NCBI RefSeq assembly: GCF_011734195.1
Contig: NZ_JAANTH010000002.1
Span: forward strand, 930,001 to 994,000
Reading direction: 5' to 3'
DNA: 64,000 nucleotides
Origin: Halobacterium sp. R2-5
GTDB taxonomy: Archaea > Halobacteriota > Halobacteria > Halobacteriales > Halobacteriaceae
The notes below the pieces were generated by a model that saw only the letters and a program-made list of their open reading frames with translations, searched no databases and had not been told where the DNA came from. Below are positions 30,532 to 48,999 of the stretch, piece after piece. The position numbers and the translations under genes were made by a program. Each line of letters opens with the position of its first letter. Position 1 is the first letter of the stretch.

Positions 30532-30558
30532 CGGTGTTCCCGAATAGCACCGGTGTCT

Positions 30559-30596: not shown

Positions 30597-30620
30597 TGCG
30601 TCGAGTCCGAAACTACCCGT

Positions 30621-31355: not shown

Positions 31356-31371
31356 CGACTGCCGGCAGCGG

Positions 31372-32547: not shown

Positions 32548-32556
32548 AGAAGTGAG

Positions 32557-33506: not shown

Positions 33507-33514
33507 TGGCGTCG

Positions 33515-34708
33515 TTAGTCACCCGCGAGCGAGTCCTGGCTGGCGGCGCAGTTGTTCGGCCCGAGTTCCAGGGTGAACGCCTCCTCGTCGTCGACGGCGT
33601 TCTGGCCGAGGTTCGTCGCGATGATGTCCTCGTAGTTGGCCGGCCGCGGCGGCATGTCCGAGAGGATCAGGTCGACGAACGCCTGTTCGTCCATCGTGAG
33701 CGCGTCCATCTCGTCGACGAGCTCGCCGATCGGTGCGGTGTAGGTGCCGTCGGCGGCGGGCTCGGCGGCGTCGCTGAAGTGCGCGCCACCGACGAGCGTG
33801 TCGTCGGGCAGCGTGAGGACGCGCTCCTGCAGGGACTCGTAGAGCATGCGCGCGGCGTCGGGCGCACCGTCGTCGCCCTCTTCGAGGTCGGGGCGGGCGA
33901 CGCTCTCGACGAACAGCCCGTCGCCGGTCGCGAGCAGGCTGTCGTCGACGAGGTACGAGGTCATCCCGGTCGTGTGGCCGGGCGTGTAGACGGCCTCGAT
34001 GGTGGCGTCACCGACGTCGAAGGTGTCGCCGTCGGTAGCGGTCGTCAGTTCGTCCGCGTAGGTGACGCCGCGGTCGACTGCGGCCTCGGGGATGACGCCC
34101 TCGACGCCGTCGTCGTCGAGCTCGCGCACGCCCGAGATGTGGTCGGCGTGGACGTGGGTGTCCAGCGCGTACTGCAGCTCGACACCGAGGTCGTCTGCGT
34201 CCTCGAGGTAGCGGTCGGTGAACGCGCGCAGCGGGTCGATGATCGCGGCTTCGCCGTCGTCGTAGAGGAGGTAGCCGAGGCAGCCCGAAGAGGGGCGCTG
34301 GTACTGGAGGAGCGTGCCGGCGCCGTCGTAGCGCTCGACCTCGACGGCCTCGTAGATGCTCGCCCAGCCGTTCATGCCGTCTTCGAGGTGGTCGACGTCG
34401 TAGCCGCGCTCCGCGAGCGTGCCCGCGACGTACTCGCTGGCGCCGCCCTTCGCGCACAGGACGGTCACCTCGCGGTCGTCGGGGATCTGGTCGAGGACGT
34501 CGTCGTCGATGTCGTCCTCGAGGAATTCGAAGTACGGGACGTTGATCGACGTGACGTTCTCTCCGTCGATACGCCACTCGTCGTAGTCTGATTGCATGCG
34601 CGCGTCGAGGAGCGTGACGTCCTCGCCGGCGTCGATGCGGTCTTTGAGCGACTCCGGGTCGACGGATTCCACGTCGACGTCCGGAGTCGGGAAGTCGTCG
34701 GCGTTCAT
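33515..34708 (-). CDS. Rhodanese-metallo-beta-lactamase fusion (persulfide dioxygenase-like) 2
   Basis: This is a 397-residue protein. The N-terminal rhodanese domain has Cys85 in 'VTVLCAKGGASEYV'; the MBL domain has 'THVHADHISG' (184-193), 'YTPGHTTGMTS' and 'LATGDGLF'. It should take persulfide sulfur and oxidise it to sulfite, or act on thiosulfate. It ends with 'LELGPNNCAASQDSLAGD', sharing the NNCAA tail with the other fusion. It is the first gene of an operon with the YeeE pair and PiT permease, whose promoter carries AGTATTGT 70 bases before the ATG at 34706-34708. Confidence 0.86.
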   Translation of the reverse strand: MNADDFPTPDVDVESVDPESLKDRIDAGEDVTLLDARMQSDYDEWRIDGENVTSINVPYFEFLEDDIDDDVLDQIPDDREVTVLCAKGGASEYVAGTLAERGYDVDHLEDGMNGWASIYEAVEVERYDGAGTLLQYQRPSSGCLGYLLYDDGEAAIIDPLRAFTDRYLEDADDLGVELQYALDTHVHADHISGVRELDDDGVEGVIPEAAVDRGVTYADELTTATDGDTFDVGDATIEAVYTPGHTTGMTSYLVDDSLLATGDGLFVESVARPDLEEGDDGAPDAARMLYESLQERVLTLPDDTLVGGAHFSDAAEPAADGTYTAPIGELVDEMDALTMDEQAFVDLILSDMPPRPANYEDIIATNLGQNAVDDEEAFTLELGPNNCAASQDSLAGD

Positions 34709-34743
34709 GTGTGCAGTCCCTTCTACTGGGTGGACGCACAAAA

Positions 34744-34778
34744 GCATTTGCATAGTAGTTCCCTGTACGAACAATACT
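34744..34778 (-). promoter_or_regulatory. Promoter of rhodanese-MBL/YeeE/PiT operon with AGTATTGT element
   Basis: AGTATTGT (34771-34778, minus strand) is followed 26 bases from its first base by 'tgcaaatgc', a weak TATA-like stretch. The leader to the ATG is about 20 bases longer than at the leaderless genes. Confidence 0.5.
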
Positions 34779-34909
34779 GTGGCGGCCGTTTCCCGTATCG
34801 GACCAACTAGACCGGGTTTGAGGGCTCTGAAACGACTTCAGAGTCTAATTCCGGTCCAACAGTAGTTAGTGGTCTCCACAAGAATCGACAATCTTTTACT
34901 TGGGCAGGG

Positions 34910-34936
34910 GGTATTGTGCGATAGCTCCAATACAGA
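34910..34936 (+). promoter_or_regulatory. Promoter of tusA-dsrE-HalOD1 operon with GGTATTGT element
   Basis: GGTATTGT (34910-34917) is followed by 'ccaatacaga' at about 34927-34936, which lies 20-29 bases before the ATG at 34956 and can act as TATA box for a leaderless mRNA. The second half 'gcgatag' partly mirrors the element. Confidence 0.5.
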
Positions 34937-34955
34937 CTCACGGAGCAGATAACCA

Positions 34956-35201
34956 ATGAGTGCTGAATTCGACATTACAGAGACGCTCGACGTGAAAGGC
35001 GCATCGTGTCCCATGCCAGTGGTGAAGACGAAGACGGCTATCGACGACCTCTCCGAGGGTGAAATCCTCGAAGTGCTGGCGACCGACTCCGGAAGCATGA
35101 GCGACATCGACGGCTGGGCCGACGGCACCGAGGGCGTCGAACTCGTCGAACAGGAGGAAGGCGACGGCGTGTACAAACACTACGTTCGCAAGACGGAGTA
35201 A
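34956..35201 (+). CDS. tusA: TusA/SirA-family sulfur carrier 1
   Basis: This is an 81-residue TusA-fold protein. The sulfur-carrying cysteine is in 'GASCPMPVVKTKTAI' (C18), the family CPxP motif. It accepts persulfide sulfur and passes it on to DsrE-type partners or tRNA/cofactor pathways. A DsrE-type gene follows after 2 bases, and a HalOD1 gene after that, in one operon. The C-terminus matches the usual TusA end. Confidence 0.9.
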   Translation: MSAEFDITETLDVKGASCPMPVVKTKTAIDDLSEGEILEVLATDSGSMSDIDGWADGTEGVELVEQEEGDGVYKHYVRKTE

Positions 35202-35203
35202 CG

Positions 35204-35776
35204 ATGAGCACGGACACACCCGACGCGTCGGCCGACGACGCGCCCTCGCGTGCGGATCTGGCCGCGCGCGTCGACGAACTCGAGGACGCGCTCGCCGAAG
35301 CCACCAGTGAGGACGACGGCAAGAAGATGAGCATCATCGCGACGAAGGGCACGCTCGACATGGCGTACCCGCCGCTCATCCTCGCCAGCACCGCCGCTGC
35401 GTTCGGCTACGAGGTGACCGTCTTCCACACGTTCTGGGGGCTGGAAATCCTCCACGAGGAGCGCTCGAAGAACCTCAAACTCAGCTCCGTCGGCAACCCC
35501 AACATGCCCGTCCCGAACGCCGTCGCCGCGCTCCCGGGCATGGACCGCGTGACGACGAAGATGATGGAGAAGAAGATCTCGGACAACGACACCGCCACCA
35601 TCGAGGAGCTCATCGAGACGAGCCTCGACATGGGTGTGGAGTTCCAGGCCTGTCAGATGACCATCGACCTCATGGACTACGACGAGGACGACTTCTACGA
35701 CGGTGTCACCACGGGCGTCGGCGCGGCGACCGCCCTCCAGGACATGGCCGACGCCGACATCCAGCTCCTCGTCTGA
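35204..35776 (+). CDS. DsrE/DsrF-like sulfur-transfer protein (DsrE2 type)
   Basis: This 190-residue protein has a coiled-coil-prone acidic N-terminus (about residues 1-40) followed by a DsrE2-type domain: 'KMSIIATKGTLDMAYPPLIL', 'EVTVFHTFWGLEIL' and the conserved cysteine in 'VEFQACQMTIDLMDYD' (about residue 148). DsrE2 proteins take sulfane sulfur from TusA and are membrane-associated or soluble carriers. It lies between tusA and a HalOD1 gene, nearly without gaps. Confidence 0.87.
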   Translation: MSTDTPDASADDAPSRADLAARVDELEDALAEATSEDDGKKMSIIATKGTLDMAYPPLILASTAAAFGYEVTVFHTFWGLEILHEERSKNLKLSSVGNPNMPVPNAVAALPGMDRVTTKMMEKKISDNDTATIEELIETSLDMGVEFQACQMTIDLMDYDEDDFYDGVTTGVGAATALQDMADADIQLLV

Positions 35777-35782
35777 TCCCCC

Positions 35783-36004
35783 ATGAACGAACTCGAGGAC
35801 CCCATCTCCAAGGTCGTCGATGCTGTCGCGGAGGCAGAGGGCGTCGAGCCAGTCACACTCGACCCGCCGCTAGCCGGGGTCGTCGATCCGGACGCAGTAG
35901 AAACGCTGATCGAGGACCCGACAGCGTCTGACCTCGAGATTCGGTTCGCGTATCGCGGTCACGACGTCGTCGTCGACGAGAGCGGTCGCGTACAGGTCGA
36001 CTAA
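35783..36004 (+). CDS. HalOD1-domain protein
   Basis: This is a 73-residue protein that matches the haloarchaeal output domain HalOD1: 'ISKVVDAVAEAEGVEPVTLD', 'PPLAGVVDPDAVETLI' and a final beta pair 'EIRFAYRGHDVVVDESGRVQ'. HalOD1 proteins are small, stand-alone output modules of unknown mechanism. It is the third gene of the tusA-dsrE operon, 6 bases after the dsrE stop, suggesting a regulatory link to sulfur transfer. Confidence 0.85.
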   Translation: MNELEDPISKVVDAVAEAEGVEPVTLDPPLAGVVDPDAVETLIEDPTASDLEIRFAYRGHDVVVDESGRVQVD

Positions 36005-36129
36005 AACAGCCCGGTATCTCTCCCGGACGCAGTATCCCACCGACGGCTACTCCAGCAGCGCCGTCCGATTTCAACGAGTAGACTCTGAGAGACTGTCGTC
36101 GCGGGGTGCGGCGGAGAACGGTGGTCGCG

Positions 36130-37248
36130 TCAGGCCCACTCCGGTTCGAGGGCGTCCAGCAGCCGCTCGACCTCAGCGTGAGTGTTGACCGCGTGGACCG
36201 ACGCGCGGACGGCGTCCGGCGTCGGCAAAGCGCGGACGACGATTCCCTCCGACGCGAGTCGGTCGACCGTCGCTTCGGGGTCGCCCACGTCGATCGTCAC
36301 GAGTCCCGACTCCGGTTCGATCGGACTGAGAAGCCGGTCGTCGGGGACGCCATCGGCCAGCCGGCCGGCCAACTCCTGGATACGGTCAGCGATACGGTCG
36401 ACTCCGACCTCGTCGATCGCATCGACGGCCTCCGCCAGAGCGACGTGCGGAGCGGGATTGGACGACCCCACCTCGAACCGTCGGGCGCCAGCCGCGAACT
36501 CGTAGGGGTCTGCAGTCGGCGTTTCGACGCTTCGGTAGCCGACTGTGGCGGGCGCGAGCGTTTCGGCGGCGTCGCGGTCGACGTAGAGAAAGCCGCCGCC
36601 CCACAGCCCTAGCAGCCACTTGTGGCCGGCCGCCGCGACGGCGTCCGCACCCCACTCGTCGACGTCCATCGGGAGCTGTCCCGGCACCTGCACGGCGTCG
36701 ACGAGCGCGAACGCGCCGGCCTCGTGGGCGATGTCGACGAGGTCGCCGACGGGTAACCGGGTGCCGTGCGTCCACGTCACCGCACTGAAACACGCCAACT
36801 GCGCGCCGTCGACGGCCTCGGCGAAGGCGTCGAGGTCGACGCGGCCGTCCTCGGTCTCGACGACGCGGACGTCGACGCCCTTCTGTTCCAGGCGTTGCCA
36901 CGGGAGCGTCCCGGCCGGGTGTTCGAGGTCGGTTCGAACGACGGTGTCGCCGGGCTCCCAGTCGATGGCGTTCGCGACGGCGTTGATGCCCGCCGTCGTG
37001 CTCTCCGTGAGCGCGATCTCGTCGCCGTCCGCACCGACGAAGGCGGCGACGCGCTCGCGAACACGGTCGTACGCGTCGAACGCCACCTCGTAGGGGTCGT
37101 TTCGAGTACTCGTCTCGTACTCGTGTGACCGCACGAACTCGTCTGCGGCTTCGACGACGTACCGCGGGCTCGGCCCGTGAGCGCCGAAGTTCAGGTAGAC
37201 GTCCTCGTGCAGGGCGGGCGTGTCGGCGCGAAGTTCTCTGGGGTTCAT
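36130..37248 (-). CDS. Class V aminotransferase (cysteine desulfurase-like)
   Basis: This is a 372-residue PLP enzyme of fold type I. 'TESTTAGINAVANAI' (about residue 80) binds the cofactor phosphate, 'ALVDAVQVPGQLPMDV' carries the Asp/Gln pair and the Schiff-base lysine is in 'AAAGHKWLLGLWGGGFLYV' (about residue 208). No catalytic cysteine loop typical of SufS (RxGxHCA) is evident, so a desulfurase role is not proven; isopenicillin N epimerase-like lyases share this architecture. It is co-transcribed 15 bases after the WCDTC thioredoxin. Confidence 0.8.
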   Translation of the reverse strand: MNPRELRADTPALHEDVYLNFGAHGPSPRYVVEAADEFVRSHEYETSTRNDPYEVAFDAYDRVRERVAAFVGADGDEIALTESTTAGINAVANAIDWEPGDTVVRTDLEHPAGTLPWQRLEQKGVDVRVVETEDGRVDLDAFAEAVDGAQLACFSAVTWTHGTRLPVGDLVDIAHEAGAFALVDAVQVPGQLPMDVDEWGADAVAAAGHKWLLGLWGGGFLYVDRDAAETLAPATVGYRSVETPTADPYEFAAGARRFEVGSSNPAPHVALAEAVDAIDEVGVDRIADRIQELAGRLADGVPDDRLLSPIEPESGLVTIDVGDPEATVDRLASEGIVVRALPTPDAVRASVHAVNTHAEVERLLDALEPEWA

Positions 37249-37263
37249 CTCGTTCTCGGTGGA

Positions 37264-37602
37264 TTAGTCGCGATACCGGGCGATCAGGTCGCGGAGTGCC
37301 TGTTCGTTCTGGCCGCCGCGAAGCTGTTTCACCGGTTGACCGTCGGCGAACAGGACGAACGTGGGCGTGCTCTGGGCACCGAACTCGACAGCCGTTTCGA
37401 GATTCGATTCGATGTCGATCGTCAGGACTGTCGCCTCGGTGTCTGCCGCGAGCGCTTCGAGAGTCGGCTCCATTCGTTTGCAGGTGTCACACCACTCCGT
37501 GTAGAACTCCACGAGCGCGACGTGGCTGTCTCCGACGACCGTTTCGAGGTCGTCGTCACCCAGCGAAACCACGCTGTCCGTCTTCGCCGTCTGTATTGCC
37601 AT
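37264..37602 (-). CDS. Thioredoxin-like protein with WCDTC active site
   Basis: This is a 112-residue thioredoxin fold with active site 'WCDTC' (residues about 37-41) replacing the usual WCGPC, which should shift its redox potential. The cis-Pro strand 'STPTFVLFADGQPVK' is present. It lies upstream of, and in one operon with, a class V aminotransferase. The AGTATTGT-like TGTATTGC element lies 54 bases upstream of the ATG at 37600-37602, and 'ttaaac' 23-28 bases upstream. Confidence 0.88.
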   Translation of the reverse strand: MAIQTAKTDSVVSLGDDDLETVVGDSHVALVEFYTEWCDTCKRMEPTLEALAADTEATVLTIDIESNLETAVEFGAQSTPTFVLFADGQPVKQLRGGQNEQALRDLIARYRD

Positions 37603-37624
37603 TACCAGGCCCTACGCACTGGGC

Positions 37625-37656
37625 GTTTAATAGTCTTGGTCTAACTATGCAATACA
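37625..37656 (-). promoter_or_regulatory. Promoter of WCDTC thioredoxin with TGTATTGC element
   Basis: On the minus strand TGTATTGC (37649-37656) is followed by 'gaccaaga' and, 26 bases from its first base, the TATA-like 'ttaaac' (37625-37630). Spacing and the CCAA tract match the trxA and TauE promoters. A plus-strand TGTATTGC at 37592-37599 overlaps the start of the gene. Confidence 0.55.
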
Positions 37657-37720
37657 CCTCGATGCGGTCGGTCCACCGTCGACATCGAGTCGGAGAGTGA
37701 AACGAACCGGAGGTCGCCCG

Positions 37721-38347
37721 CTAGCGTGATTCGCCGGTGGTCTGCTCATGGCCGACCGCGCCTGCGAGCGCCAGCAGGTAGCCCAGCCCGTACTGTACGT
37801 CCGGATCACGCAGTCCGCGGAGCAGGCCGACGGCCCCGACCTGCTCGGGCGGTTCCCGCTCCGCTTCACCGACCCCCTCCAGCAGCGTCTCGATGCCGTC
37901 ACGAGTGTCGTCGTCGGACGCCGTCTGCGCGATCTCGCCGAGCGCGGCGCCGGTGCCGGCCAGCGACGTGACCATCTCGTCGTCGAGCGCCGCGGTCGCC
38001 AGCGACCCGACCTCCGCGAGTTCGGCCAGTTCGTCGAGCGTGCCGCTCCGCTGGAGCGCGAGCACCGTGTCGAGTGCCTCCCGCAGGTCGTCGCCGTTCT
38101 CCCCGACCGTCTCGGCCAGCGCCACGGTCTCGTCGGTCGCCAGCCCGTCCGCAGACTCCGCCAGCGTCGACCCCGTGGCCGAGAGCTCGCGGACCATCTC
38201 GTCGTCGAGCGCGCTCTCGCCCAGCGAGAGCACGTCCAGTAGCTCGTTGACGGCGTCGAGGTGCTCCACGAACTCGGCGACCGCCTCGGGGTTCTGCTCG
38301 ATCGCCGCTTCGAGGTCGGTCGGCGCGGTAGCCTGGTTCTCGGACAT
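37721..38347 (-). CDS. DUF1641 protein (SQR partner)
   Basis: This 208-residue acidic, helical protein lacks membrane segments. The 'PPEQVGAVGLLRGLRDPDVQ' and 'YGLGYLLALAGAVG' region near the C-terminus is the DUF1641 core. The N-terminal part holds two similar helical repeats ('ALDDEMVRELSATGSTLAES' and 'ALDDEMVTSLAGTGAALGEI'). DUF1641 genes typically accompany sulfide:quinone oxidoreductase; here it follows SQR after 2 bases. The biochemical role is unknown, probably assembly or membrane tethering of SQR. Confidence 0.85.
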   Translation of the reverse strand: MSENQATAPTDLEAAIEQNPEAVAEFVEHLDAVNELLDVLSLGESALDDEMVRELSATGSTLAESADGLATDETVALAETVGENGDDLREALDTVLALQRSGTLDELAELAEVGSLATAALDDEMVTSLAGTGAALGEIAQTASDDDTRDGIETLLEGVGEAEREPPEQVGAVGLLRGLRDPDVQYGLGYLLALAGAVGHEQTTGESR

Positions 38348-38349
38348 GG

Positions 38350-39495
38350 TCAGAGCAGTCCCCGCGCGGTGAGCCAGTAGGACTCGTTGTACGCCAGCTT
38401 CGACCAGTGGAGCTTCTCCGAGGGCAGCGCCGGCGACGGCGGGTTCTCGTAGTCGAACTCGACGAACGACGCCGCGTCCATCCCCGTCTCGATGAAGCAC
38501 AGCGTCTTCCCGTCGTAGGTCGCGGTCGCCGGGCGGCCGCGAATCTCGCTGGCGAGGCGCTGCCCGACGACGCCGGCCTGGTAGTGGGCGACGCTGCCCG
38601 CGTTCGGGACGCCGGTGTCGGCGGTGTCGCCGAGCGCGTAGACGTCCTCGGCGGCCTCGGCTTCCAGCGTGTGCTTGTCGACGTCGACCCAGCCGCCGTC
38701 GCCGAGCCCCGCCTCCTCGATCAGGTCGACGCCGCCGTGGGGCGGAATCGTCACGAGGAGGTCGTAGTCGAGTTCGGTCCCCTCCATCGACGTGACGGTC
38801 TCCGCCTCGGGGTCGACCGACTCGGCGTTGAAGAACGTCTCCACCTGGATGTCCCGTTCCTCCATGATGGGGCGGGCCCACTCGGCGATGTGGGGGTTGC
38901 CGTGGACGCGCTGAATCGGGTACGTGTAGGTGATGTCGACGTCCTCCCGTAGGCCGCGCTCGCGGAGCCAGTCGTCGGCCATGAAGACGAACTCCAGCGG
39001 CGCCGCCGGACACATGTGCGGGGTCCCGATGACGCTCAATACGAGGTCGCCCTCGGTGAACTCCAGGAGTTCGTCGCGCAGGTCGGTCGCGCCCGACTCG
39101 CTGTAGTAGTTGTGACCGCCCTCCGTGAGGCCGGGGATTCGGTCGGGCTCCAGCGTCGACCCGGTCGCCAGGACGAGATAGTCGTAGCCGACTGACGGGG
39201 CGCTACCGTGGAACTGGAGCCGCTGGGACTCGGTGTCGATGTCGGACACGCGGTCGATCCGGAGGTCGACGGCGTCGTCGACGAGGTCGTCGAGCGGGCG
39301 GCGTCCGTCGTCCGGCTCGCGTTGGCCGAACGGCACGTACAGCCAGACCGGTTTGTAGACGTGGTCGGAGTCGTCGTTGACCAGCGTGACGCGGACGTCG
39401 CCGGCGTCGAGTTCGGGTTCGAGTCGGTCGGCGAGGTCGTTCGCGAGGACGGTGCCGCCGGTCCCGCCACCGACGATGACGACGTGCTCAGTCAT
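38350..39495 (-). CDS. sqr: Sulfide:quinone oxidoreductase
   Basis: This 381-residue peripheral membrane flavoprotein oxidises sulfide to sulfane sulfur with quinone as acceptor. The FAD motif 'VVIVGGGTGGTVLAND' opens the protein, and 'DVYALGDTAD' (about 284-293) is the second FAD contact. Two cysteines are visible, C162 in 'GTPHMCPAAP' and C333 in 'KTLCFIETG', matching the redox pair of SQR; the third cysteine of some SQR types is absent. The ATG overlaps the TusA stop (ATGA). It forms an operon tusA-sqr-DUF1641. Confidence 0.88.
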   Translation of the reverse strand: MTEHVVIVGGGTGGTVLANDLADRLEPELDAGDVRVTLVNDDSDHVYKPVWLYVPFGQREPDDGRRPLDDLVDDAVDLRIDRVSDIDTESQRLQFHGSAPSVGYDYLVLATGSTLEPDRIPGLTEGGHNYYSESGATDLRDELLEFTEGDLVLSVIGTPHMCPAAPLEFVFMADDWLRERGLREDVDITYTYPIQRVHGNPHIAEWARPIMEERDIQVETFFNAESVDPEAETVTSMEGTELDYDLLVTIPPHGGVDLIEEAGLGDGGWVDVDKHTLEAEAAEDVYALGDTADTGVPNAGSVAHYQAGVVGQRLASEIRGRPATATYDGKTLCFIETGMDAASFVEFDYENPPSPALPSEKLHWSKLAYNESYWLTARGLL

Positions 39496-40670: not shown

Positions 40671-40763
40671 ACCCACGAATACACTATACTGGCACCTAAG
40701 CCTTTCCGACGACTCCCCTACCCGCCGAGCGACCCGGCGCAAACGTCAGCCTAAAGGCCGCTA

Positions 40764-42011
40764 CTAGTCGATCTGGGACTGCCACCTCGCCGGGAGCTGA
40801 GCGTAGACGACGGCGTTGTCGACGAGCACGTCGACCGGGACGTACTCGTCCGGCGCGTGGACCGTGTCGGTTCCGAGCGCGAACTCGACGGTCGGGACGC
40901 CCGCATTCCGGAGTTTCTTGGCGTCACCGCCACCCGTCGCGCTCCGTCTGAAGACGCGCTCGCCCGTGACGTCCGCCGCTGTCGACGCGACGGCTTCGAC
41001 GAGGGGGCTGCCGGGGGCTTCCGCGGTACCGACGCTCCAGGAGACGTCGGCGATCGTGATCCCTTCGCAGTCGGCGACGCACTCCCGGATTCCCGCGAGC
41101 ACGTCGGGCGTGTGGACGCCCGCCGTCAGTCGTACGTCGACTTCGGCGCGCGCAGACTGCGGGACGGTGTTGATCGCGTCGCCGCCCTCGAGGACGCCGA
41201 GATTGATCGAGGGGTACCAGAACAGGTCTCGCGCGGTGGCTTCGCCCATCGAGGGAGCGTAGTACTCGACGGACTCCTCGACGATCGGTGCCACGTCAGC
41301 GTCGATCTCGAGTCGCCTGGTGCCGAACCGTTCGCGCATGGTTTCGACGGCGTCGTAGAGCCGGTCGATGGCGTTGACGCCGAGCACCGGTCGGGAGCCG
41401 TGGGCCCCTTCGCCGCTAGCTTCGAGCGTCAGCCAGATGCTGCCCCGGTCCGCGACTGTGACTGAGTGGCGGCCTTCCTCGCACGTCGGCTCCCCGATGA
41501 CGCAAGCGTCGGCGTCGAGGCGTCCGGCCTCGAGCAGCGCGGACAGGCCGGCGTCACCGCCGACCTCCTCGTCGCTCACGAACGCGAACTGGAGGTCGAC
41601 GGGCGGAACAGTGTCGGTGGCCGCGAAGGCCCGAATTGCGAACAGCATCGACGCCACGGCGCCCTTCATATCGGTCGCGCCGCGGCCGTAGACGCGCTCG
41701 CCGACGCGCTCGCCGAGCGGGTCGCGAGCCCACGCGTCGGTGTCGAACGGGACGGTGTCGAGGTGGCCGTTGTAGAGCAGCGTCCCGTCCGACGCTCCGG
41801 GGACTCGAACGAGGAGGTTCGGCTTCGCCGGGTCGACCGCGAAGCGCTCGACGTCCACCGGGAGCGGCTCGAGGAACCGCTCGACCGCCGCGGCGATTTC
41901 GCGCGTGTCGCCGGGCGGGTTCGACGTGTCGATGCCAAGCAGGTCGAGGGCGAGCTCGACTAGTTCCACGCGGTGCGCGCGAACGTACTCGGCCGGCGTC
42001 TCGTCGCTCAT
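40764..42011 (-). CDS. M20-family amidohydrolase (ArgE/DapE type)
   Basis: This is a 415-residue metallo-amidohydrolase. Metal ligands are in 'LYNGHLDTVPFD' (about residue 80), 'GRGATDMKGAVASML' (about 113) and 'VSDEEVGGDAG' (about 150); His in 'RSATGGGDAKKL' is replaced by a GGGD variant. It deacylates N-acyl amino acids or dipeptides. The ATG overlaps the stop of a 48-residue upstream frame (ATGA). Its promoter carries the AGTATTGT element, so it probably belongs to the sulfur regulon; N-acyl-cysteine or a gamma-glutamylcysteine product is a speculative substrate. Confidence 0.85.
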   Translation of the reverse strand: MSDETPAEYVRAHRVELVELALDLLGIDTSNPPGDTREIAAAVERFLEPLPVDVERFAVDPAKPNLLVRVPGASDGTLLYNGHLDTVPFDTDAWARDPLGERVGERVYGRGATDMKGAVASMLFAIRAFAATDTVPPVDLQFAFVSDEEVGGDAGLSALLEAGRLDADACVIGEPTCEEGRHSVTVADRGSIWLTLEASGEGAHGSRPVLGVNAIDRLYDAVETMRERFGTRRLEIDADVAPIVEESVEYYAPSMGEATARDLFWYPSINLGVLEGGDAINTVPQSARAEVDVRLTAGVHTPDVLAGIRECVADCEGITIADVSWSVGTAEAPGSPLVEAVASTAADVTGERVFRRSATGGGDAKKLRNAGVPTVEFALGTDTVHAPDEYVPVDVLVDNAVVYAQLPARWQSQID

Positions 42012-42154
42012 GCGTGGTCGGGGGTGCCGTCGAGGACGTTCGCCCCCTTGAGAGCCGGATCCCGGGCGGGGCTGAACGGCGGTGAGTCGGATCCTCGCGC
42101 TCGGTCGTGCTCGCGGCGTTCGTCACCGCCGACGACCACGGACGTGTCGCTCAT
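42008..42154 (-). CDS. 48-residue peptide overlapping the M20 gene
   Basis: An ATG at 42152-42154 opens a 48-codon frame ('MSDTSVVVGGDERREHDRAR' at its start, 'KGANVLDGTPDHA' at its end) that stops in the ATGA shared with the M20 start codon. The AGTATTGT element lies 53 bases upstream of this ATG, the same distance as at other leaderless regulon genes, which supports this start as the true 5' gene. The family is unknown; it may be a leader peptide or a small partner protein. Confidence 0.5.
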   Translation of the reverse strand: MSDTSVVVGGDERREHDRARGSDSPPFSPARDPALKGANVLDGTPDHA

Positions 42155-42177
42155 ATCTCGCCGTTGGAGCGGTAGAA

Positions 42178-42207
42178 TCAAAAGTATTTCGTAGAATACA
42201 CAATACT
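42178..42207 (-). promoter_or_regulatory. Promoter of 48-residue peptide/M20 operon with AGTATTGT element
   Basis: AGTATTGT (42200-42207, minus strand) lies 53 bases before the ATG at 42154. A T/A-rich 'aaatactttt' stretch ending about 27 bases before the ATG can serve as TATA box. Confidence 0.55.
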
Positions 42208-42234
42208 GTTGCCCCCTCGTGGCTCAGAACGACC

Positions 42235-43476
42235 TCACTCGGAGAGCGATTCTGCGGCTGGGCCAGTCACGGGAGCCCGCGACGTCAGTGCCGTCCAGAG
42301 GTCGACAACGAGGAACGCCCAGGCGACGGCGATCAGCAGGTAGCCGACGAGCGTCAGCGAGGCCGCGAGCCCCTCGAGTGGCGGCATCGCCGTGCCCCAG
42401 AGTGCGAGCATTCCGAGGTTGACGCTCGCAATCTGGATCCAGGACGGCCGGCCGACGGTCTCGACGCCCACATCCAGCAGGGAGACGACGTCCTGCGTCT
42501 CGCTCCCGAGGGAAACCGCGACGGCGGGCAGGAACGCCATCGCCAACTGGAGCATCCAGCCGAACACGAGGCCGTCGATCGCCGCTAGCTCGATCGCCGC
42601 CCCGGGAACCGTTTCGGGGAACAGCAACACGAGCGGGGCCCACGGGACCGGAAACGCCAGCCAGAGATACGCTCCGAGAACGAGAGCGAGCCGCCGAGTG
42701 CGAGTCCGGTCACCGGCGCGGTACGTCCCGACGACGTTCGCCAGCAGCGCCCCCGTTCCGACGACATACACAGCCAGTCCGCCCATCGTGAGCTCGTGGC
42801 GCGCGAGCCACGGGCCGGCGACGAGTCCCGCCGCTCCGGAAGTGATTCCCCAGTAGGTGACGCTGCGGAGGCGCGGGTACCGGAGGTCGGCTCCGAACAG
42901 GTGCGGGATCGACACGAGGAGTGCGCCGGCCGCGACGAGCGCGAGGAACCCCCAGACGTTGGCGTGCACGTGTGCCTCGATCGACCCGAAGTACCCGCCG
43001 GGCCCGTGACGGTTCAACAGCATCCCGAACGCGGCGAGGACGCCGACGACCAGGAACCACGGCGCGGTCCTGAAGAATCGGGTTCTGTGGTCGCCGGCCG
43101 CGCTCGCCCGGAAGACCGTCACCAGCAGCCCGCCGAGCGCCACGAGGACGAGCGTCGCACCGACAACGGCGGTCGTCGTGTCGCCGGTCGCCATCCCGAT
43201 CAGGACGAGCGGATACCCCGCGTTCAGGGAGGCCCACTGGAACCACCGATTCCGGGTAGCCGCCGTCGCGGACGCAGAACTCACGAGCGCGGGAAGCGCG
43301 CCGAACAGCGCCTGCGTCAGCCCTCCGATCGTGACGAAGTGGATCGTCAACCATCGGAGCCGCGGCAACGCGTCGATCGCGCCGAATTCGACGCCGAGCT
43401 TTCCGACGACGGCCAGCAAGCCGACTGAGAGATACAGGCCGGCCACGAGGAGAAACGGGTCGGTTCGTGTTTGCAT
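42235..43476 (-). CDS. Multi-pass membrane protein (NnrS/heme-copper oxidase subunit-like)
   Basis: This 413-residue protein has about twelve hydrophobic helices. Conserved-looking histidines sit inside helices: 'LTIHFVTIGGLTQALFG', 'AHVHANVWGFLAL' and 'WLARHELTMGG'. This resembles NnrS or the core of heme-copper oxidase subunit I. It may bind heme or copper or handle nitric oxide or a sulfur gas; no proof from sequence. The ATG at 43474-43476 is chosen over an upstream one lying in the tandem repeat region. It is divergent from an HTH_10 regulator across a repeat array. Confidence 0.7.
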   Translation of the reverse strand: MQTRTDPFLLVAGLYLSVGLLAVVGKLGVEFGAIDALPRLRWLTIHFVTIGGLTQALFGALPALVSSASATAATRNRWFQWASLNAGYPLVLIGMATGDTTTAVVGATLVLVALGGLLVTVFRASAAGDHRTRFFRTAPWFLVVGVLAAFGMLLNRHGPGGYFGSIEAHVHANVWGFLALVAAGALLVSIPHLFGADLRYPRLRSVTYWGITSGAAGLVAGPWLARHELTMGGLAVYVVGTGALLANVVGTYRAGDRTRTRRLALVLGAYLWLAFPVPWAPLVLLFPETVPGAAIELAAIDGLVFGWMLQLAMAFLPAVAVSLGSETQDVVSLLDVGVETVGRPSWIQIASVNLGMLALWGTAMPPLEGLAASLTLVGYLLIAVAWAFLVVDLWTALTSRAPVTGPAAESLSE

Positions 43477-43528
43477 CGTCGTGAACACCTGCCCGAGAGT
43501 CGTCGTTCGTCCCGGGTACCAGTTCGTC

Positions 43529-43690
43529 CGAACTTGTCGGGCGTGTTCGAACATGTTGGCCTCACGCGAACTTGTCGGGCGTGTTCGAACATGTTGGCCT
43601 CACGCGAACTTGTCGGGCGTGTTCGAACATGTTGGCCTCACGCGAACTTGTCGGGCGTGTTCGAACATGTTGGCCTCACGCGAACTTGTC
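43529..43690. repeat. 38-bp tandem repeat array with palindromes (4.3 copies)
   Basis: Four identical direct copies of 38 bp occupy 43529-43566, 43567-43604, 43605-43642 and 43643-43680, followed by the first 10 bases of a fifth copy. Each unit contains the perfect palindrome TGTTCGAACA and the overlapping AACATGTT. The array fills most of the intergenic region between the NnrS-like gene and the HTH_10 gene. No spacers or cas genes are present. A multi-site operator is the likeliest role. Confidence 0.85.
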
Positions 43691-43729
43691 AGGGCATAGT
43701 TCAAGGCGTCCCGGCGGCGACGTTCCGGT

Positions 43730-44374
43730 GTGCCTCGAGCCCGACTCTCCATCTCGCTTCCTCCGGACGTCTGGATGCGCGAACTATCGACGACTCACGA
43801 CGCCACGGCGTTCGAAGTCGTGACAGCGCTTGCGGGCGAGAACGCCGGAATCGCACTCCTCCGGATCGAGAGCGACGACCTCCTCGACATCCTCGCAGAC
43901 GTTCGGAGCCGACCGGACGTCGGCGACGTCGACTTGCTCTGGAAGCGCGAGCTGACCGCGCTCGTCCAGGTCGAGACCACGAGCCCGCCGCTCCTCTTCC
44001 CCCTGTGGCAGGCGGGCGTCCCCGTCAAGATGCCGTTCACCGTGCTCGACGGGAGCGCGACGTGGGAACTGACAACGTCGTCGGACCGGCTGTCCGAACT
44101 CCGCGAGCACCTCGACGAGGCGGGCATCGAATACGACCTCGAGTCCGTCGTCGAGATCGGCTCCTCGGAGGCCGACCGACTGCTGACGCCTCGACAGCGC
44201 GAGGTACTGGCCGTCGCTATCGACGCGGGATACTACGCCGTTCCGCGCGAAGCGACGCTCACCGACGTTGCAGAGACGCTGGGCGTCTCGAAGTCGACGT
44301 GCAGCGACATCCTCCACCGCTGTGAGAGCAGCATCGTCACCTGGTTCGCCGAAGAACAGTTCACGCAGCCCTGA
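43730..44374 (+). CDS. HTH_10 (Bat-type) transcriptional regulator
   Basis: This 214-residue protein has an N-terminal sensor-like domain and a C-terminal HTH_10 domain: 'LTPRQREVLAVAIDAGYYAV' and 'TLTDVAETLGVSKSTCSDIL'. The start is GTG at 43730; 'gcatagttcaa' 26-36 bases upstream is a plausible TATA box, so the mRNA would be leaderless. The tandem palindromic array ends just upstream of that box. It probably autoregulates and controls the divergent NnrS-like gene. The ligand is unknown. Confidence 0.83.
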   Translation: MPRARLSISLPPDVWMRELSTTHDATAFEVVTALAGENAGIALLRIESDDLLDILADVRSRPDVGDVDLLWKRELTALVQVETTSPPLLFPLWQAGVPVKMPFTVLDGSATWELTTSSDRLSELREHLDEAGIEYDLESVVEIGSSEADRLLTPRQREVLAVAIDAGYYAVPREATLTDVAETLGVSKSTCSDILHRCESSIVTWFAEEQFTQP

Positions 44375-44393
44375 CGAGTGCCGCCGGACTGCG

Positions 44394-44657
44394 TCAGGAT
44401 TCGCTGCCGTCCGGCGCGCCGCACCCACAGCCCGAGCGGAACCGGTAGACGACACCGACCACACCCACCGTCAGCACGGTCACGAGGACTCTGACGAGCC
44501 CGCCACCGAGTGCGGCCGCCGTTCCCCCGGCAGCGGCGGCGCCGGCCGTCGGCGCAGCGAAGAGACAGCAGAGACTCAACGCGCCGCCAACACCGAGTAA
44601 CCGCCATGGCGGTGTCGACGCGTCCGCGGCACTCGCGTCCTCGTCCGAATCAGTCAT
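44394..44657 (-). CDS. Small membrane protein with C-terminal CGCG
   Basis: This is an 87-residue protein with an acidic N-terminus, two hydrophobic helices ('LLGVGGALSLCCLFAAPTAG' and 'LVRVLVTVLTVGVVGVVYRF') and a C-terminal 'SGCGCGAPDGSES'. A vicinal CC pair lies in the first helix. This pattern recalls mercury/thiol shuttle proteins of the MerT/MerC type, without firm homology. It is 67 bases downstream of the DsbA-linked membrane protein genes and may be part of that operon. Confidence 0.65.
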   Translation of the reverse strand: MTDSDEDASAADASTPPWRLLGVGGALSLCCLFAAPTAGAAAAGGTAAALGGGLVRVLVTVLTVGVVGVVYRFRSGCGCGAPDGSES

Positions 44658-44724
44658 CGGTTCGTGTTTCGTCTACTCGACTGACGCAAGTGTGTTTGGG
44701 CCGTCGAAGCTGTCGGTCGCACGG

Positions 44725-45138
44725 TCAGCACACCTCGCAACGCCGGCGCTGGTAGACCAGGAGACCGGCGGAGAACACCACGCTCGCGACGCCGAGTACC
44801 GGTCGGAGCGGGTCGAAGTACGTCATGAGCGCCGACGAGCTGAACAGCGCGAGCAGCACGGCGTTACAGATCGGGCAGCCGAACGCCAGGAACCCGCCGA
44901 CGATTCCGCCGGCGGCGAACCGGTCGCCGATCGGCTCTTCGGCCAGCGAGCGCTGGTAGACGAACGCGCCGGCGAAGACGGCTGTGGCGACGAGAAACAG
45001 GTAGTCCGCCGGGGTCCGGTCGATCATCCGGACGTAGACCGGGTTCGGCAGCAGGCCGGTCACCGCCCCGAACAGGACGAACACCCCGACGCTCACGCCG
45101 ACACTCCGGAGCAGACGAGGGCGTGGCAGCGACGTCAC
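44725..45138 (-). CDS. Four-helix membrane protein with CPIC motif
   Basis: This is a 137-residue protein with about four hydrophobic helices. A 'GGFLAFGCPICNAVLLAL' segment puts a CPIC pair inside a helix (about residue 89), and the protein ends 'RRRCEVC' with another vicinal pair. The start is a GTG overlapping the upstream stop (GTGA), indicating translational coupling. Together with its neighbours it suggests a membrane thiol relay for the DsbA-like protein, comparable in logic to DsbB/VKOR or CcdA but not recognisably homologous. Confidence 0.68.
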   Translation of the reverse strand: MTSLPRPRLLRSVGVSVGVFVLFGAVTGLLPNPVYVRMIDRTPADYLFLVATAVFAGAFVYQRSLAEEPIGDRFAAGGIVGGFLAFGCPICNAVLLALFSSSALMTYFDPLRPVLGVASVVFSAGLLVYQRRRCEVC

Positions 45139-45689
45139 GCACGCACACCTCCGTCGACCGAACACGTCCGTGGGTCGCCGGCGCGACCGAGGAAGAAGAG
45201 GAGCAGCCCGATCCCACCGATTCGCAGGAGGTTGCCGTCGAACGGCAGCGCCGCCATCGCGCCGACGAAGCCCAGCGCTCCGAGCACGCCCGCGCCACAG
45301 CTCGCACAGCCGGCGGCGAGCAGTCCGGGGAGCACGCCGACGATCGTCGACGCACCCCGTCGACGCGCACGGCGGACCTGCGCGAGCGCGTTCGCCACCG
45401 CGACGCCAGTCAGTACCGCGTACGCGGCGACCAGCGCGAGTCCGAGGTAGCCGGTAGTCAGGTACACTTCACGCGTGAGGGCGGTGACCGCGTAGCCGAC
45501 CTCGGTCGGGTCGTTCGCGAGCACCTGGAACGAGAACTGGGGGAACGAGCTCAACACCAGGACGACGTACGTGCCGACCGTCACGACGGCGGCCGACAGC
45601 AACCGCACGTCCGACGTGAGCGGGAAGGCGAGTGCGTCCCGGAGGTCGCGAGCCCAGTCGCGACTCGCGGCGGCGCGGTCCCCGGTCAC
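45135..45689 (-). CDS. Multi-pass membrane protein with GCASCG motif
   Basis: This is a 184-residue protein with about five hydrophobic helices. 'LPGLLAAGCASCGAGVLGAL' (about residue 130) places a CxxC pair in a membrane segment. It starts at GTG overlapping the DsbA stop (GTGA) and its own stop overlaps the next GTG, so three genes form a tightly coupled operon. I recall similar proteins beside thioredoxin-like genes in haloarchaea but no assigned function. Confidence 0.7.
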   Translation of the reverse strand: MTGDRAAASRDWARDLRDALAFPLTSDVRLLSAAVVTVGTYVVLVLSSFPQFSFQVLANDPTEVGYAVTALTREVYLTTGYLGLALVAAYAVLTGVAVANALAQVRRARRRGASTIVGVLPGLLAAGCASCGAGVLGALGFVGAMAALPFDGNLLRIGGIGLLLFFLGRAGDPRTCSVDGGVRA

Positions 45690-46423
45690 GCCTGCATCAC
45701 CTGGTCGATTCTGTCGGCGAAGTTCTCGTAGGGGTGGGCGCCGACGAGTTTCCCGGCCGCCCCGGAGTCGCGGTTGTAGAGTACGAACCCCGGCGTCCCC
45801 CGGATTCTCGCCTCCCGGGCGACGTCGACGTTCGGCTCCATGCTCTCGCGAATCGACGCGCCGCGTTCCTCGCGGCAGGCCTCGACCGCGGACAGGTCCA
45901 CGCCGTCCGTCTGTTCGGTGACCGACGCGAACGCCTCGTCGTCGGCCCAGTCCGTGCCGGAGTCGGGTTGTTCGGCGAAGGCCGCCGCGTGCCAGTTCCA
46001 GAAGGCGTCCGGATTGCTGTCGGCGACCTGCGACCACACGCAGCGGCCCCAGACCGCCGCTGGCGCAGAGTATGCCCCGATGTTCGGGTAGGGCAGGACG
46101 GCCAGACGAGCGTCGCCGGTGTCGAGGTACGTGCGACCGAGCTCCGGCAGCGTCTCCGTCTCGAACTGCTTGCAGAACGGGCACAGGTAGTCAGTCCAGT
46201 AGTAGATGTCCACCGCCGCGTCGCGTTCGCCGGCGATGGGGCGCCCGGTGAGGTCGACGCCGAACCCGGTCGTCTCGGTACCGGCGTGTGTGGTGTTCGG
46301 GACGTAGTGCTGCCCGCTCGCTCCGGACTGTGACCCGATGTAGGCGACACCACCGCCGAACGCGAGAACCGCGCCGCCGGCGACGAGTGCTCTCCGGCGA
46401 GTGATATTGCCCTCTTCGTCCAT
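45686..46423 (-). CDS. DsbA-like thiol oxidoreductase, Tat-exported
   Basis: This 245-residue protein starts with a Tat signal ('ITRRRALVAGGAVLAFGGGV') and has a DsbA-type thioredoxin fold. The active site is 'CPFC' in 'YYWTDYLCPFCKQFETETLP' (about residue 80), the inserted helical domain carries 'WNWHAAAFAEQ', and the cis-Pro strand is 'RGTPGFVLYN'. It should form or isomerise disulfides outside the membrane. Two membrane proteins with CxxC motifs follow in overlapping frames. A 10-base inverted repeat flanks its start codon. Confidence 0.85.
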   Translation of the reverse strand: MDEEGNITRRRALVAGGAVLAFGGGVAYIGSQSGASGQHYVPNTTHAGTETTGFGVDLTGRPIAGERDAAVDIYYWTDYLCPFCKQFETETLPELGRTYLDTGDARLAVLPYPNIGAYSAPAAVWGRCVWSQVADSNPDAFWNWHAAAFAEQPDSGTDWADDEAFASVTEQTDGVDLSAVEACREERGASIRESMEPNVDVAREARIRGTPGFVLYNRDSGAAGKLVGAHPYENFADRIDQVMQA

Positions 46424-46439
46424 CTTTGTGCAATATCAC
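46401..46439. promoter_or_regulatory. Perfect 10-base inverted repeat around the DsbA start codon
   Basis: GTGATATTGC (46401-46410) and its exact complement GCAATATCAC (46430-46439) flank the DsbA ATG (46421-46423) with a 19-base loop. In the mRNA this could form a hairpin with the start codon in the loop; on DNA it could be an operator between TATA ('tgatagac', about 46451-46458) and the gene. The ATATTGC half resembles the regulon element. Confidence 0.5.
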
Positions 46440-46500
46440 CGCCCATTCGCTGATAGACGTTGTGGTCCCAGTGAGACCCACGGCCGTCCTCCCTGGACAC

Positions 46501-46914
46501 CTACACCGCGTTTTCGACTGTCCCGACTATCGAATACGGGTCGTGTGAGCCATCATTCCGCACCACGACGACGAACCCGGTCGTCTCCTCGACTGGCACC
46601 ACGACGGTGGCCAGCGTATCGTACACGCGAACGGTCGCACGCAGCGGCTCTCCGTGATAATCCTCGTAGACCGAGGTGCCAATCGCCTCCAGCTGAATGT
46701 GCTCCAGGATCGCCCGGATGTCCGACGCAGTGTACTGTGCGGACGCCGCCTCGTCCCGGTAGACGACGTCGTACTCGCCGTCCTCGTAAGAAGCGAGGCC
46801 GACCAGCGTCTCACCGAGGTCGTTCTTCAGTGACGATTCGAGGGGGCCAGCGACAGCCGCGAGTGAGCGGTCGTTCGAGTGGCGTCCATCCGCGTCAGCA
46901 GACCCACCAGTCAT
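46501..46914 (-). CDS. Conserved haloarchaeal protein (DUF7522-like), thioredoxin partner
   Basis: This is a 137-residue acidic protein without membrane segments. Its layout ('LGETLVGLASYEDGEYDVVY', 'ILEHIQLEAIGTSVYEDY', 'TVVVPVEETTGFVVVV') parallels the protein at 10683-11138 and a family I recall as DUF7522. It starts 7 bases after the stop of the thioredoxin gene at 46922-47335, so both share the AGTATTGT promoter. The function is unknown. Confidence 0.72.
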   Translation of the reverse strand: MTGGSADADGRHSNDRSLAAVAGPLESSLKNDLGETLVGLASYEDGEYDVVYRDEAASAQYTASDIRAILEHIQLEAIGTSVYEDYHGEPLRATVRVYDTLATVVVPVEETTGFVVVVRNDGSHDPYSIVGTVENAV

Positions 46915-46921
46915 CGTCGGC

Positions 46922-47335
46922 TCACGCGTGTGTTTCGATCACGGAGCGAAGCTGAGCTTCGTCCTGCATTCCGACGAGTCGTTCCGCCGGCTGTCCGTCA
47001 GCGAACAGGACGAGCGTCGGAACCCCACGGACACCGTACTCGGCGGCGAGTTGCTGGTTCGCGTCGATATCGATCTTCGCCACGGTCGCACCGGTATCGG
47101 CCGCGATCGTTTCGACGATCGGCTCGAGCATCTGGCAGGGGCCACACCAGTCGGCGTAGAAGTCGGCCAGCACGAGGTCGTACTCGGCGACAGTCTCGGA
47201 TAGCTCGGCGTCGCCGTTGACGTGGATCGGCTCGGACGGACTCTCCGGGGCTGCCTCCTCAGCACCGCCCGTTTCGGCCCGGTTTCGAAGCTCCGCCAGT
47301 TTCTGTCGTCGGATCTCCTCGATGTCTTCGGCCAT
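46922..47335 (-). CDS. Thioredoxin with charged N-terminal extension
   Basis: This 137-residue protein has active site 'WCGPC' (about residue 65) and cis-Pro 'GVPTLVLF'. About 40 extra residues precede the fold and start with a charged helix 'EDIEEIRRQKLAELRNRAET', followed by an acidic linker; the extension may bind DNA or a partner protein. It is co-transcribed with a DUF7522-like gene. The AGTATTGT element lies 55 bases upstream of the ATG. Confidence 0.9.
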   Translation of the reverse strand: MAEDIEEIRRQKLAELRNRAETGGAEEAAPESPSEPIHVNGDAELSETVAEYDLVLADFYADWCGPCQMLEPIVETIAADTGATVAKIDIDANQQLAAEYGVRGVPTLVLFADGQPAERLVGMQDEAQLRSVIETHA

Positions 47336-47360
47336 TAGTTACCCGTTCGAACCGCACCGA

Positions 47361-47390
47361 CTTATGTATTTGCATAAAGTGCACAATACT
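47361..47390 (-). promoter_or_regulatory. Promoter of third thioredoxin with AGTATTGT element
   Basis: AGTATTGT (47383-47390, minus strand) is followed by 'aaatacataag' (47361-47371), an AT-rich TATA candidate 26-36 bases before the ATG. The element starts 55 bases before the ATG. Confidence 0.55.
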
Positions 47391-47417
47391 GGGTGGGAGA
47401 ATCCGAGCTAACAGGGT

Positions 47418-47837
47418 TCAGGAACGGGGCCGAATCGGCTGCTGCTCTCGGTCGCCCGAGCCTCGGCCGTACCGGTCTTCGAACCCCCGGATGAGCTGTC
47501 CGATGGCCGCATACCAGTCGTTGAGCAACCGCTGCATTTCGTGCGCGACTTCCTCGGGCGTCCGCGGACGATACACGTAGTAGTACCCGCCGTGGTCGTA
47601 GTTCACTTGCCGCTGTTCGACGACGCCGGCCTCGAGGAGCCGGGAGATCGAGCGATACGCCGTCGACCGCTCACAGTCCAGTCGGTCGGCCACGTCGTCG
47701 ACGGCGAGTCCCTCTTCTGCCCGCTGTAGCACCTGAAAGACCAGCTGATCCCGCTCGTTGAGCCCGTGAATGCAACCAAGAAGGTCGAGACACTCCATGT
47801 CGCGCTCGAGGTCCTCACGCACCGAAGTGGTCACCAT
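47418..47837 (-). CDS. Winged-helix thiol regulator, paralogue 2 (OxsR/TrmB-like)
   Basis: This 139-residue protein is closely related to regulator 1 (26264-26668): 'MECLDLLGCIHGLNERDQ', HTH 'LAVDDVADRLDCERSTAYRS', 'GGYYYVYRPRTP' and C-terminal helix 'MQRLLNDWYAAIGQLIRGFE'. C16 and C22 repeat the C-x5-C pair; C55 lies in the recognition region before 'ERSTAYRS'. I start at the ATG at 47835-47837, which a 'tttaat' box 26-31 bases upstream supports. The GGTATTGT element is 55 bases upstream. It marks the right edge of the sulfur island. Confidence 0.82.
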   Translation of the reverse strand: MVTTSVREDLERDMECLDLLGCIHGLNERDQLVFQVLQRAEEGLAVDDVADRLDCERSTAYRSISRLLEAGVVEQRQVNYDHGGYYYVYRPRTPEEVAHEMQRLLNDWYAAIGQLIRGFEDRYGRGSGDREQQPIRPRS

Positions 47838-47862
47838 ATCGGAGAATAGGGTGGTAGAGGCG

Positions 47863-47892
47863 ATTAAAGTTGTTCCCGAACACCACAATACC
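47863..47892 (-). promoter_or_regulatory. Promoter of regulator 2 with GGTATTGT element
   Basis: GGTATTGT (47885-47892, minus strand) is followed by 'tttaat' (47863-47868) 24 bases from its first base and lies 55 bases before the ATG at 47837. This suggests autoregulation or cross-regulation by the paralogue. Confidence 0.55.
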
Positions 47893-47996
47893 GACCCGGC
47901 CGAGAAGGGGCCGGGCCGATTCTACCACCAGATACTGCGCTCTCTCTATCGGATACCCGAAGAGATTTTGTCCCGAAGGCCCAAGATAGTGCACGA

Positions 47997-48437
47997 ATGA
48001 CGCTCCCGATCGACCCGAGCCAGATCGACCCTGCAGACATCGGCGAAGAACAGGCGACCCTCGAGATGAGCCACGAAGACGCCATCGAACACGTCCGCGA
48101 CGTGTTCACCGACGCCGGGTTCGGCGTCCCCGTCGAGTTCTCCCCCTCCGAGATGCTCAACGAGAAGGTCGACGCGGGCCGCGACCCCTACTACGTGCTC
48201 GGCGCGTGCAACCCCGAGGTCGCCGACCGCGCGCTCGACGCGACCGACAACAAACTCGGTGCTCTGATGGCCTGTAACGTCGTCATCTGGGAGGAGGAGC
48301 CCGGCAAGCAGGTCGTCTATCACGTCTCCATCATGCGCATCGCCCGCCTGGTCGGGATGGCGCCCGACGACGAAGAGATGGCAGACATCGTCGCCCAGAC
48401 CGGCGAACTCGTCGACGAGGCGTTCGCGAACCTCTGA
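47997..48437 (+). CDS. DUF302 protein
   Basis: This 146-residue protein has the DUF302 fold: 'MSHEDAIEHVRDVFTDAGFG', 'DPYYVLGACNPEVADRAL' with the conserved N-P-x-x-A, and 'LGALMACNVVIWEEEPGKQV'. Function is unknown; DUF302 genes often lie near sulfur, metal or redox genes. A methyltransferase follows with a 1-base gap, so the two are co-transcribed. No AGTATTGT element is at the right distance on this strand. Confidence 0.87.
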   Translation: MTLPIDPSQIDPADIGEEQATLEMSHEDAIEHVRDVFTDAGFGVPVEFSPSEMLNEKVDAGRDPYYVLGACNPEVADRALDATDNKLGALMACNVVIWEEEPGKQVVYHVSIMRIARLVGMAPDDEEMADIVAQTGELVDEAFANL

Positions 48438-48438
48438 C

Positions 48439-48999
48439 ATGGGGCATCACACCTTCGACGCCGACCGCGCCGACAAACTCGAAGAGGCACAGCGGCGGTA
48501 CCGGTTCCTCTCCGCGGAGGAACTGCTCTGGGCGCTGTCACCAGACGGCGACGAAACAGTGGCGGACCTCGGGAGCGGGACCGGGTTCTACACCGACGAC
48601 GTCGCACCGGCCGTCGACCACGTGTACGCCGTCGACATCCAGGAGGCGATGCACGACTACTACCGGGAGAAAGGCGTCCCCGAGAACGTCGACCTCGTGA
48701 CGAGTGGCGTCGACGACCTCCCACTCGATACTGGCAGTCTCGACGCTGCGTTCTCGACGATGACCTACCACGAGTTCGCGAGCGATTCCGCGTTGAGCGA
48801 ACTCAGTCGCGTGCTCGCGTCACAGGGAACGCTCGTCATCGTCGACTGGGCAGCCTCCGGAAGTGGGGACCACGGTCCACCCGTCGACGAACGGTTCTCC
48901 GTCACCGAGACGGTGAGCGCACTCCGTCAGCACGGGTTCACAGTCGAATTCGAAGCGGTGCGGCCAGAAACGTTTCTGGTGACGGCAACCGCCCAATAA
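48439..48999 (+). CDS. Class I SAM-dependent methyltransferase
   Basis: This is a 186-residue protein. SAM motif I 'VADLGSGTGFYTDDVAP' is at about residue 34, the ribose-binding acid in 'VYAVDIQEAMHDYY', and 'FSTMTYHEFAS' is a motif IV-like strand. It resembles small methyltransferases that methylate thiols, arsenic or quinones; the substrate is not determined. It is translated directly after the DUF302 gene. Confidence 0.83.
   Translation: MGHHTFDADRADKLEEAQRRYRFLSAEELLWALSPDGDETVADLGSGTGFYTDDVAPAVDHVYAVDIQEAMHDYYREKGVPENVDLVTSGVDDLPLDTGSLDAAFSTMTYHEFASDSALSELSRVLASQGTLVIVDWAASGSGDHGPPVDERFSVTETVSALRQHGFTVEFEAVRPETFLVTATAQ

Follow-up and report, generated by a model that had tools for sequence, protein, structure and literature searches.

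A nine-box repeat array between divergent HTH_10 and CcoN-like genes as a probable expanded operator in a haloarchaeal genome

Tandem repeats in bacterial promoters tune expression through their copy number. For haloarchaea, the closest described element is the motif CGAACATGTTCG/CGAAYATDKTYG of the Haloferax mediterranei nir, nor and nos promoters (nirK/nor/nosZ), where each promoter carries one site 66-79 bp upstream and where changing the first base lowers nos and nor promoter activity, which supports a positive role there; the motif is present in 83 promoter regions, and its binding protein was left open (PMC10062603). Inspection of the open-licence literature returned this one relevant paper for CGAACATGTTCG and nothing relevant on archaeal promoter repeat arrays. 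Regulators of the HTH_10 family, of the NarO and DmsR type, control anaerobic respiration in haloarchaea, according to work cited in PMC11218638. Here we describe a repeat array that lies between an HTH_10 gene and a divergent membrane-protein gene and whose boxes resemble this motif.

Architecture of the array and its flanking genes

The window, that is, the whole 64-kb stretch of DNA analyzed (contig C2:930001-994000), comes from a genome assembled in 5 contigs. Its intergenic region at 43477-43729 spans 253 bp, of which the array occupies 164 bp (Table 1). The 38-bp unit CGAACTTGTCGGGCGTGTTCGAACATGTTGGCCTCACG is present in four perfect copies, followed by a partial fifth copy whose recognizable part is a 12-bp terminal box. 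The four identical 38-bp repeats placed between divergent genes by the initial annotation are thereby confirmed: TRF reports 38 bp x 4.4 copies at a 99% match (43529-43695), and TGTTCGAACATGTT occurs 4 times in the window versus 0.15 expected, where none of 100 shuffles reaches four. The full 38-mer is unique to the array in a search of the whole 2.98-Mb genome. TRF reports a period of 19 as well, and each 38-mer is composed of two diverged 19-bp modules, CGAACTTGTCGG+7 and CGAACATGTTGG+7. That is to say, the 38-bp copies are real, but their internal period had been missed and the unit is a dimer of 19-bp modules, so that the array holds nine related boxes and not merely four units. The start-to-start distance of these 12-bp boxes is exactly 19 bp throughout; the left half, CGAAC, is intact in all nine, and the right half is degenerate. 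A coding repeat is ruled out because 38 is not a multiple of 3, and the lack of spacers rules out a CRISPR.

Table 1 Coordinates of the array, its boxes and the flanking genes in the window
Feature	Position	Strand	Remarks
Divergent gene, 413-aa membrane protein, CcoN/COX1-like	42235-43476	-	Start at 43476 conserved in relatives
Inverted half-site GTTCG	43522-43526	-	2 bp before first box (GTTCG-TC-CGAAC); kept in several orthologues
Predicted operator array	43529-43692	.	Nine 12-bp boxes at 19-bp pitch (4 x 38-bp units 43529-43680 + terminal box)
38-bp unit 1	43529-43566	+	Box A CGAACTTGTCGG 43529-43540; box B CGAACATGTTGG 43548-43559
38-bp unit 2	43567-43604	+	Boxes at 43567 and 43586
38-bp unit 3	43605-43642	+	Boxes at 43605 and 43624
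38-bp unit 4	43643-43680	+	Boxes at 43643 and 43662
Terminal box CGAACTTGTCAG	43681-43692	+	At -49 from HTH_10 start
TAGTTCAAGG	43697-43706	+	Largely conserved between terminal box and HTH_10 start; no clear TATA box
HTH_10 (bacterio-opsin-activator-type) regulator, 214 aa	43730-44374	+	Pfam HTH_10; GTG start

The array lies at promoter distance from both genes, where the first box sits at about -53 from the start of the divergent gene and the terminal box precedes the HTH_10 GTG. It had been described as ending at the TATA region of the HTH_10 gene. It does end near the start of that gene, but the sequence GGGCATAGTTCAAGG that follows it is no convincing TATA box; TAGTTCAAGG is a possible weak core promoter.

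The 214-aa protein scores 66.7 bits versus the Pfam HTH_10 model (cut-off 23.1), which places it in the family, and its GTG start is backed by the starts of orthologues. It has 18 matches at E<=0.001 in the genome. NarO reportedly carries an N-terminal cysteine motif, CXnCXCX7C (2016 abstract). Since the 214-aa protein lacks this motif and has cysteines only at 191 and 198, both in the C-terminal HTH region, its identification as NarO is ruled out. A special sensor role for these two cysteines was considered and dropped, since C191 is shared widely across the family and only the closest orthologues have C198.

The minus-strand gene had been taken for NnrS-like, an identity that we reject because no Pfam or NCBIfam NnrS model matches it; the 413-aa protein has no match in Pfam even at E<=10. 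Its closest counterpart appears to be CcoN/COX1 (haem-copper oxidase subunit I). A HMMER profile of six homologues matches CcoN1 (cbb3 oxidase) at E=0.0011, homologues reach 27-29 bits versus Pfam COX1, below the cut-off of 34.8, and a homologue on a Halorussus limi plasmid is annotated as cbb3 oxidase subunit I. We therefore describe the protein as resembling CcoN/COX1. Relatives share the start codon of its gene as well as the adjoining intergenic sequence.

Box number and spacing in relatives

The divergent pair of HTH_10 and CcoN-like genes is conserved among relatives. Orthologues of the pair at 69-88% identity occur in six other genomes, one per species, each with three boxes at 19-bp spacing: G343 (HTH_10 identity 88%), G188 (Halorussus litoreus), G313 (85%), G428 (79%), and G339 and G118 (69%). 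These loci hold one 38-bp unit and a terminal box, versus four units and a terminal box in the window. Repeat number, which the initial annotation had suggested comparing in related strains, thus differs between species. The terminal box lies at -49 in the five genomes other than Halorussus litoreus; it lies at -49 or -50 in most orthologues of 55-88% identity and at -45 to -58 overall. Two further genomes at ~56% identity, G127 and G310, have three spaced boxes too, and distant orthologues (50-54%) have two boxes exactly 19 bp apart, a pattern matched by none of 5000 shuffles. When boxes are scored by offset from the terminal box at seven less redundant loci, -19 and -38 score highest of all, again with 0/5000 shuffles matching. 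Over long times, the predicted 19-bp-spaced box set is conserved, and its copy number is not.

Comparison with Halorussus litoreus HD8-51 presents the difference most directly. A syntenic segment of this genome (L063) is 84-87% identical to window positions ~40714-48985. Once the window array is reduced to one unit, the two intergenic regions align colinearly; that of Halorussus litoreus has the boxes CGAACCTGCCGG, CGAACATGTGAA and CGAACATGTCAG at 19-bp pitch. The HTH_10 and CcoN-like genes are separated by 139 bp in G343 and in Halorussus litoreus versus 253 bp in the window, a difference of 114 bp, or 3 x 38. Given three boxes in the relatives and a window region longer by exactly this length, the sequence comparison shows a predicted three-box ancestral operator that grew to nine boxes in the window lineage. 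A protein tree places the window sequence among the three-box relatives, where the window and its three nearest relatives group with 82/81 support and the fork adding G428 has 99/98 support; the nine-box state is therefore derived. The copies had been proposed to be either recent or maintained by selection. Their recency is borne out, since the orthologous loci hold one unit and the window genome four, and selection is not needed to explain their identity because recent duplication does so.

No second expanded array emerged from family-wide searches around three close orthologues, which added one genome (G428). When 391 haloarchaeal genomes were scanned for pairs of boxes without a fixed spacing, no clean spacing preference resulted, because many matches have the appearance of conserved coding repeats (spacings of 22 and 21 bp); among the matches listed, no other genome has a comparable 19-bp box array.

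Several features of the neighborhood vary. The HTH_10 protein has its nearest orthologues in genomes of other families, and same-genus genomes reach 52% at best; together with the high identity to Halorussus litoreus, this makes it likely that the region around the array was acquired by horizontal transfer. In Halorussus litoreus, an extra pyridine-nucleotide-disulfide-oxidoreductase-like gene (L063, 3177-4556), missing from the window, sits between a peptidase-like gene and the CcoN-like gene. At several HTH_10 orthologues of ~50-54% identity, an MMPL-type transporter replaces the CcoN-like gene: at loci L052, L053, L054 and L056 the divergent gene encodes a large transporter and the two-box operator is kept, where the transporter at L053 belongs to the MMPL family by Pfam and the other three are similar by sequence. 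Locus L114 (G231) has a second 19-bp-spaced pair, CGAATATATCCG and CTAATATATTCG, roughly 190 and 171 bp upstream of the HTH_10 start, which possibly serves the divergent gene. Within the window itself, positions 24697-39495 hold a sulfur/thiol gene cluster with thioredoxin reductase-like, TauE, DsrE-like and sulfide-quinone-reductase-like genes and rhodanese-metallo-beta-lactamase fusions. The array may serve a sulfur-related rather than a nitrogen-related circuit.

Relation to the denitrification motif and the HTH_10 family

The boxes resemble a degenerate form of CGAACATGTTCG, where box B (CGAACATGTTGG) matches at 11 of 12 positions and box A (CGAACTTGTCGG) and the terminal box at 9 of 12 each. 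We scored 23 loci of HTH_10 paralogues, all non-orthologues of the window gene; some are close relatives, and the effective number is smaller. At 16 of these 23 loci, a match to CGAACATGTTCG of at least 10/12 lies within 150 bp upstream, compared with 1/23 among control stretches; when 59 palindromic permutations of CGAACATGTTCG were scored on the same loci, none exceeded 1/23. The source genome also has a NirK-like multicopper oxidase cluster (L050, 9951-14874; G000 C2:789950-794873) that contains an HTH_10 paralogue, a CcoN-like gene and CGAAC-N2-GTTCG sites, and is a parallel circuit in the same genome. Six sites of at least 11/12 occur within 8.9 kb around these genes, a density with a Poisson probability of ~1e-9 for a region chosen after seeing the matches. 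Presence of the motif both at HTH_10 paralogue loci and in the nirK-like cluster indicates that it belongs to HTH_10 regulators as a group.

A candidate expanded operator and its alternatives

On these sequence comparisons, we consider it probable that the array is an expanded operator of an HTH_10-family regulator, most likely the adjacent one, which would control both divergent genes. The initial annotation had proposed a stack of operator sites for the HTH_10 protein. Such a stack of operator-like sites is well supported by the conserved 19-bp box set in orthologous promoters, and the binding protein is most likely encoded by the adjacent gene. Conserved adjacency suggests this protein as the binder, as does an association of its recognition-helix lysine with G versus T at box position 2 (Fisher p=0.0016, a test that phylogeny confounds and kinship inflates).

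The ancestral operator would have comprised three degenerate CGAAC-N2-GTTCG boxes 19 bp apart, with outer boxes ~50 bp upstream of each start codon, shared by two divergent promoters and autoregulated by the HTH_10 protein. Its 38-bp, two-box segment would then have been duplicated up to four copies; the first and last boxes are nearly identical, and slippage or unequal recombination between them is the probable mechanism. Growth by complete 38-bp units in the middle of the array leaves each promoter at its old distance from the nearest box and holds all boxes on the 19-bp pitch, such that more regulator dimers could align along it. Since mutating the Haloferax motif lowers promoter activity, we infer by analogy that occupancy probably activates. 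Under autoregulation, expansion should in that case give higher or more sharply controlled expression of both the regulator and the oxidase-like membrane protein, with stronger or more switch-like activation as its likely effect. The affinity of individual boxes may be modest since their right halves are degenerate (9-11 of 12 matches). At ~1.8 helical turns, a pitch of 19 bp falls short of an integral number, so dimers would spiral round the DNA and would not be expected to stack simply on one face. The MMPL-type transporter that takes the place of the CcoN-like gene at several orthologues of ~50-54% identity also weighs against this model. We regard as unlikely an extended form of this model, in which the box number of the 19-bp array evolves by slippage and strains differ in unit number; HTH_10 protein would assemble cooperatively from the array into a filament on DNA, and the array would serve a divergent, autoregulated respiratory/NO-related circuit as an evolvable tuning knob or as a regulator sink.

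Whether the extra copies matter is where an expanded operator and neutral slippage part. Under neutral slippage, which is compatible with the operator reading and differs from it only on the role of the extra copies, the three ancestral boxes are functional and the additional units merely lengthen the spacer. Identical copies are expected of recent duplication, three boxes suffice in the relatives, and function could be unchanged, given that neither gene has shifted relative to its outer box; we hold this to be a serious, if tentative, possibility. All copies are intact boxes in register, which speaks against neutrality, but only weakly because a recent event leaves no time for decay. The identity of the bound protein raises a separate and somewhat more doubtful alternative, where another regulator of the same family, such as the nirK-cluster paralogue or a NarO-type global anaerobic regulator, binds the array and the adjacent HTH_10 gene is only one target. 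With 18 matches to the regulator in the genome, such a protein could bind instead: recognition helices are similar among the paralogues, the palindrome also lies upstream of many of them and in the nirK-like cluster, and the Haloferax motif extends to the 83 promoter regions noted above. In contrast, the 19-bp-spaced box set stays beside this particular orthologue across families, and the base at box position 2 tends to covary with the recognition helix of its neighbor protein. An assembly artefact or an element of another kind (coding repeat, CRISPR, replication iterons or terminator hairpins) appears very improbable. Identical tandem copies would suit an artefact and iteron-like direct repeats would look similar, but an array of ~160 bp is short relative to usual reads in a genome of so few contigs, the period argues against a coding repeat and the lack of spacers against a CRISPR, the array sits at a conserved promoter flanked by two conserved genes, and its unit is unique in the genome while its modules are conserved in orthologous promoters.

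An expanded operator of the HTH_10 family would thus present a natural case of a regulatory switch enlarged by repeat expansion. It links a haloarchaeal promoter motif of tested function with the HTH_10 regulators and provides a probable operator geometry for them, a 12-bp box at a 19-bp pitch. With three boxes in relatives and nine here, there is a natural series in which the dependence of an archaeal promoter on operator number can be tested directly.

Relative to Halorussus litoreus HD8-51 and the five other genomes, the gene pair, the box positions and the 19-bp pitch are alike, and the unit count differs. Like bacterial promoter repeats, the locus has short, perfectly matching tandem copies within a promoter, in numbers that vary among relatives; here, in contrast, the unit is a conserved pair of predicted regulator boxes, and the host is an archaeon. 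The regulator is akin to the NarO and DmsR type as a small HTH_10 protein without PAS or GAF domains, linked to a motif common to denitrification promoters, and differs from NarO by lacking the N-terminal cysteine motif. As in Haloferax mediterranei, the element is a 12-bp semi-palindrome with a CGAAC left half, tens of bp upstream of start codons. Where a Haloferax promoter has a single site, the window has nine copies in direct orientation between the divergent genes, spaced at 19 bp and degenerate in their right halves.
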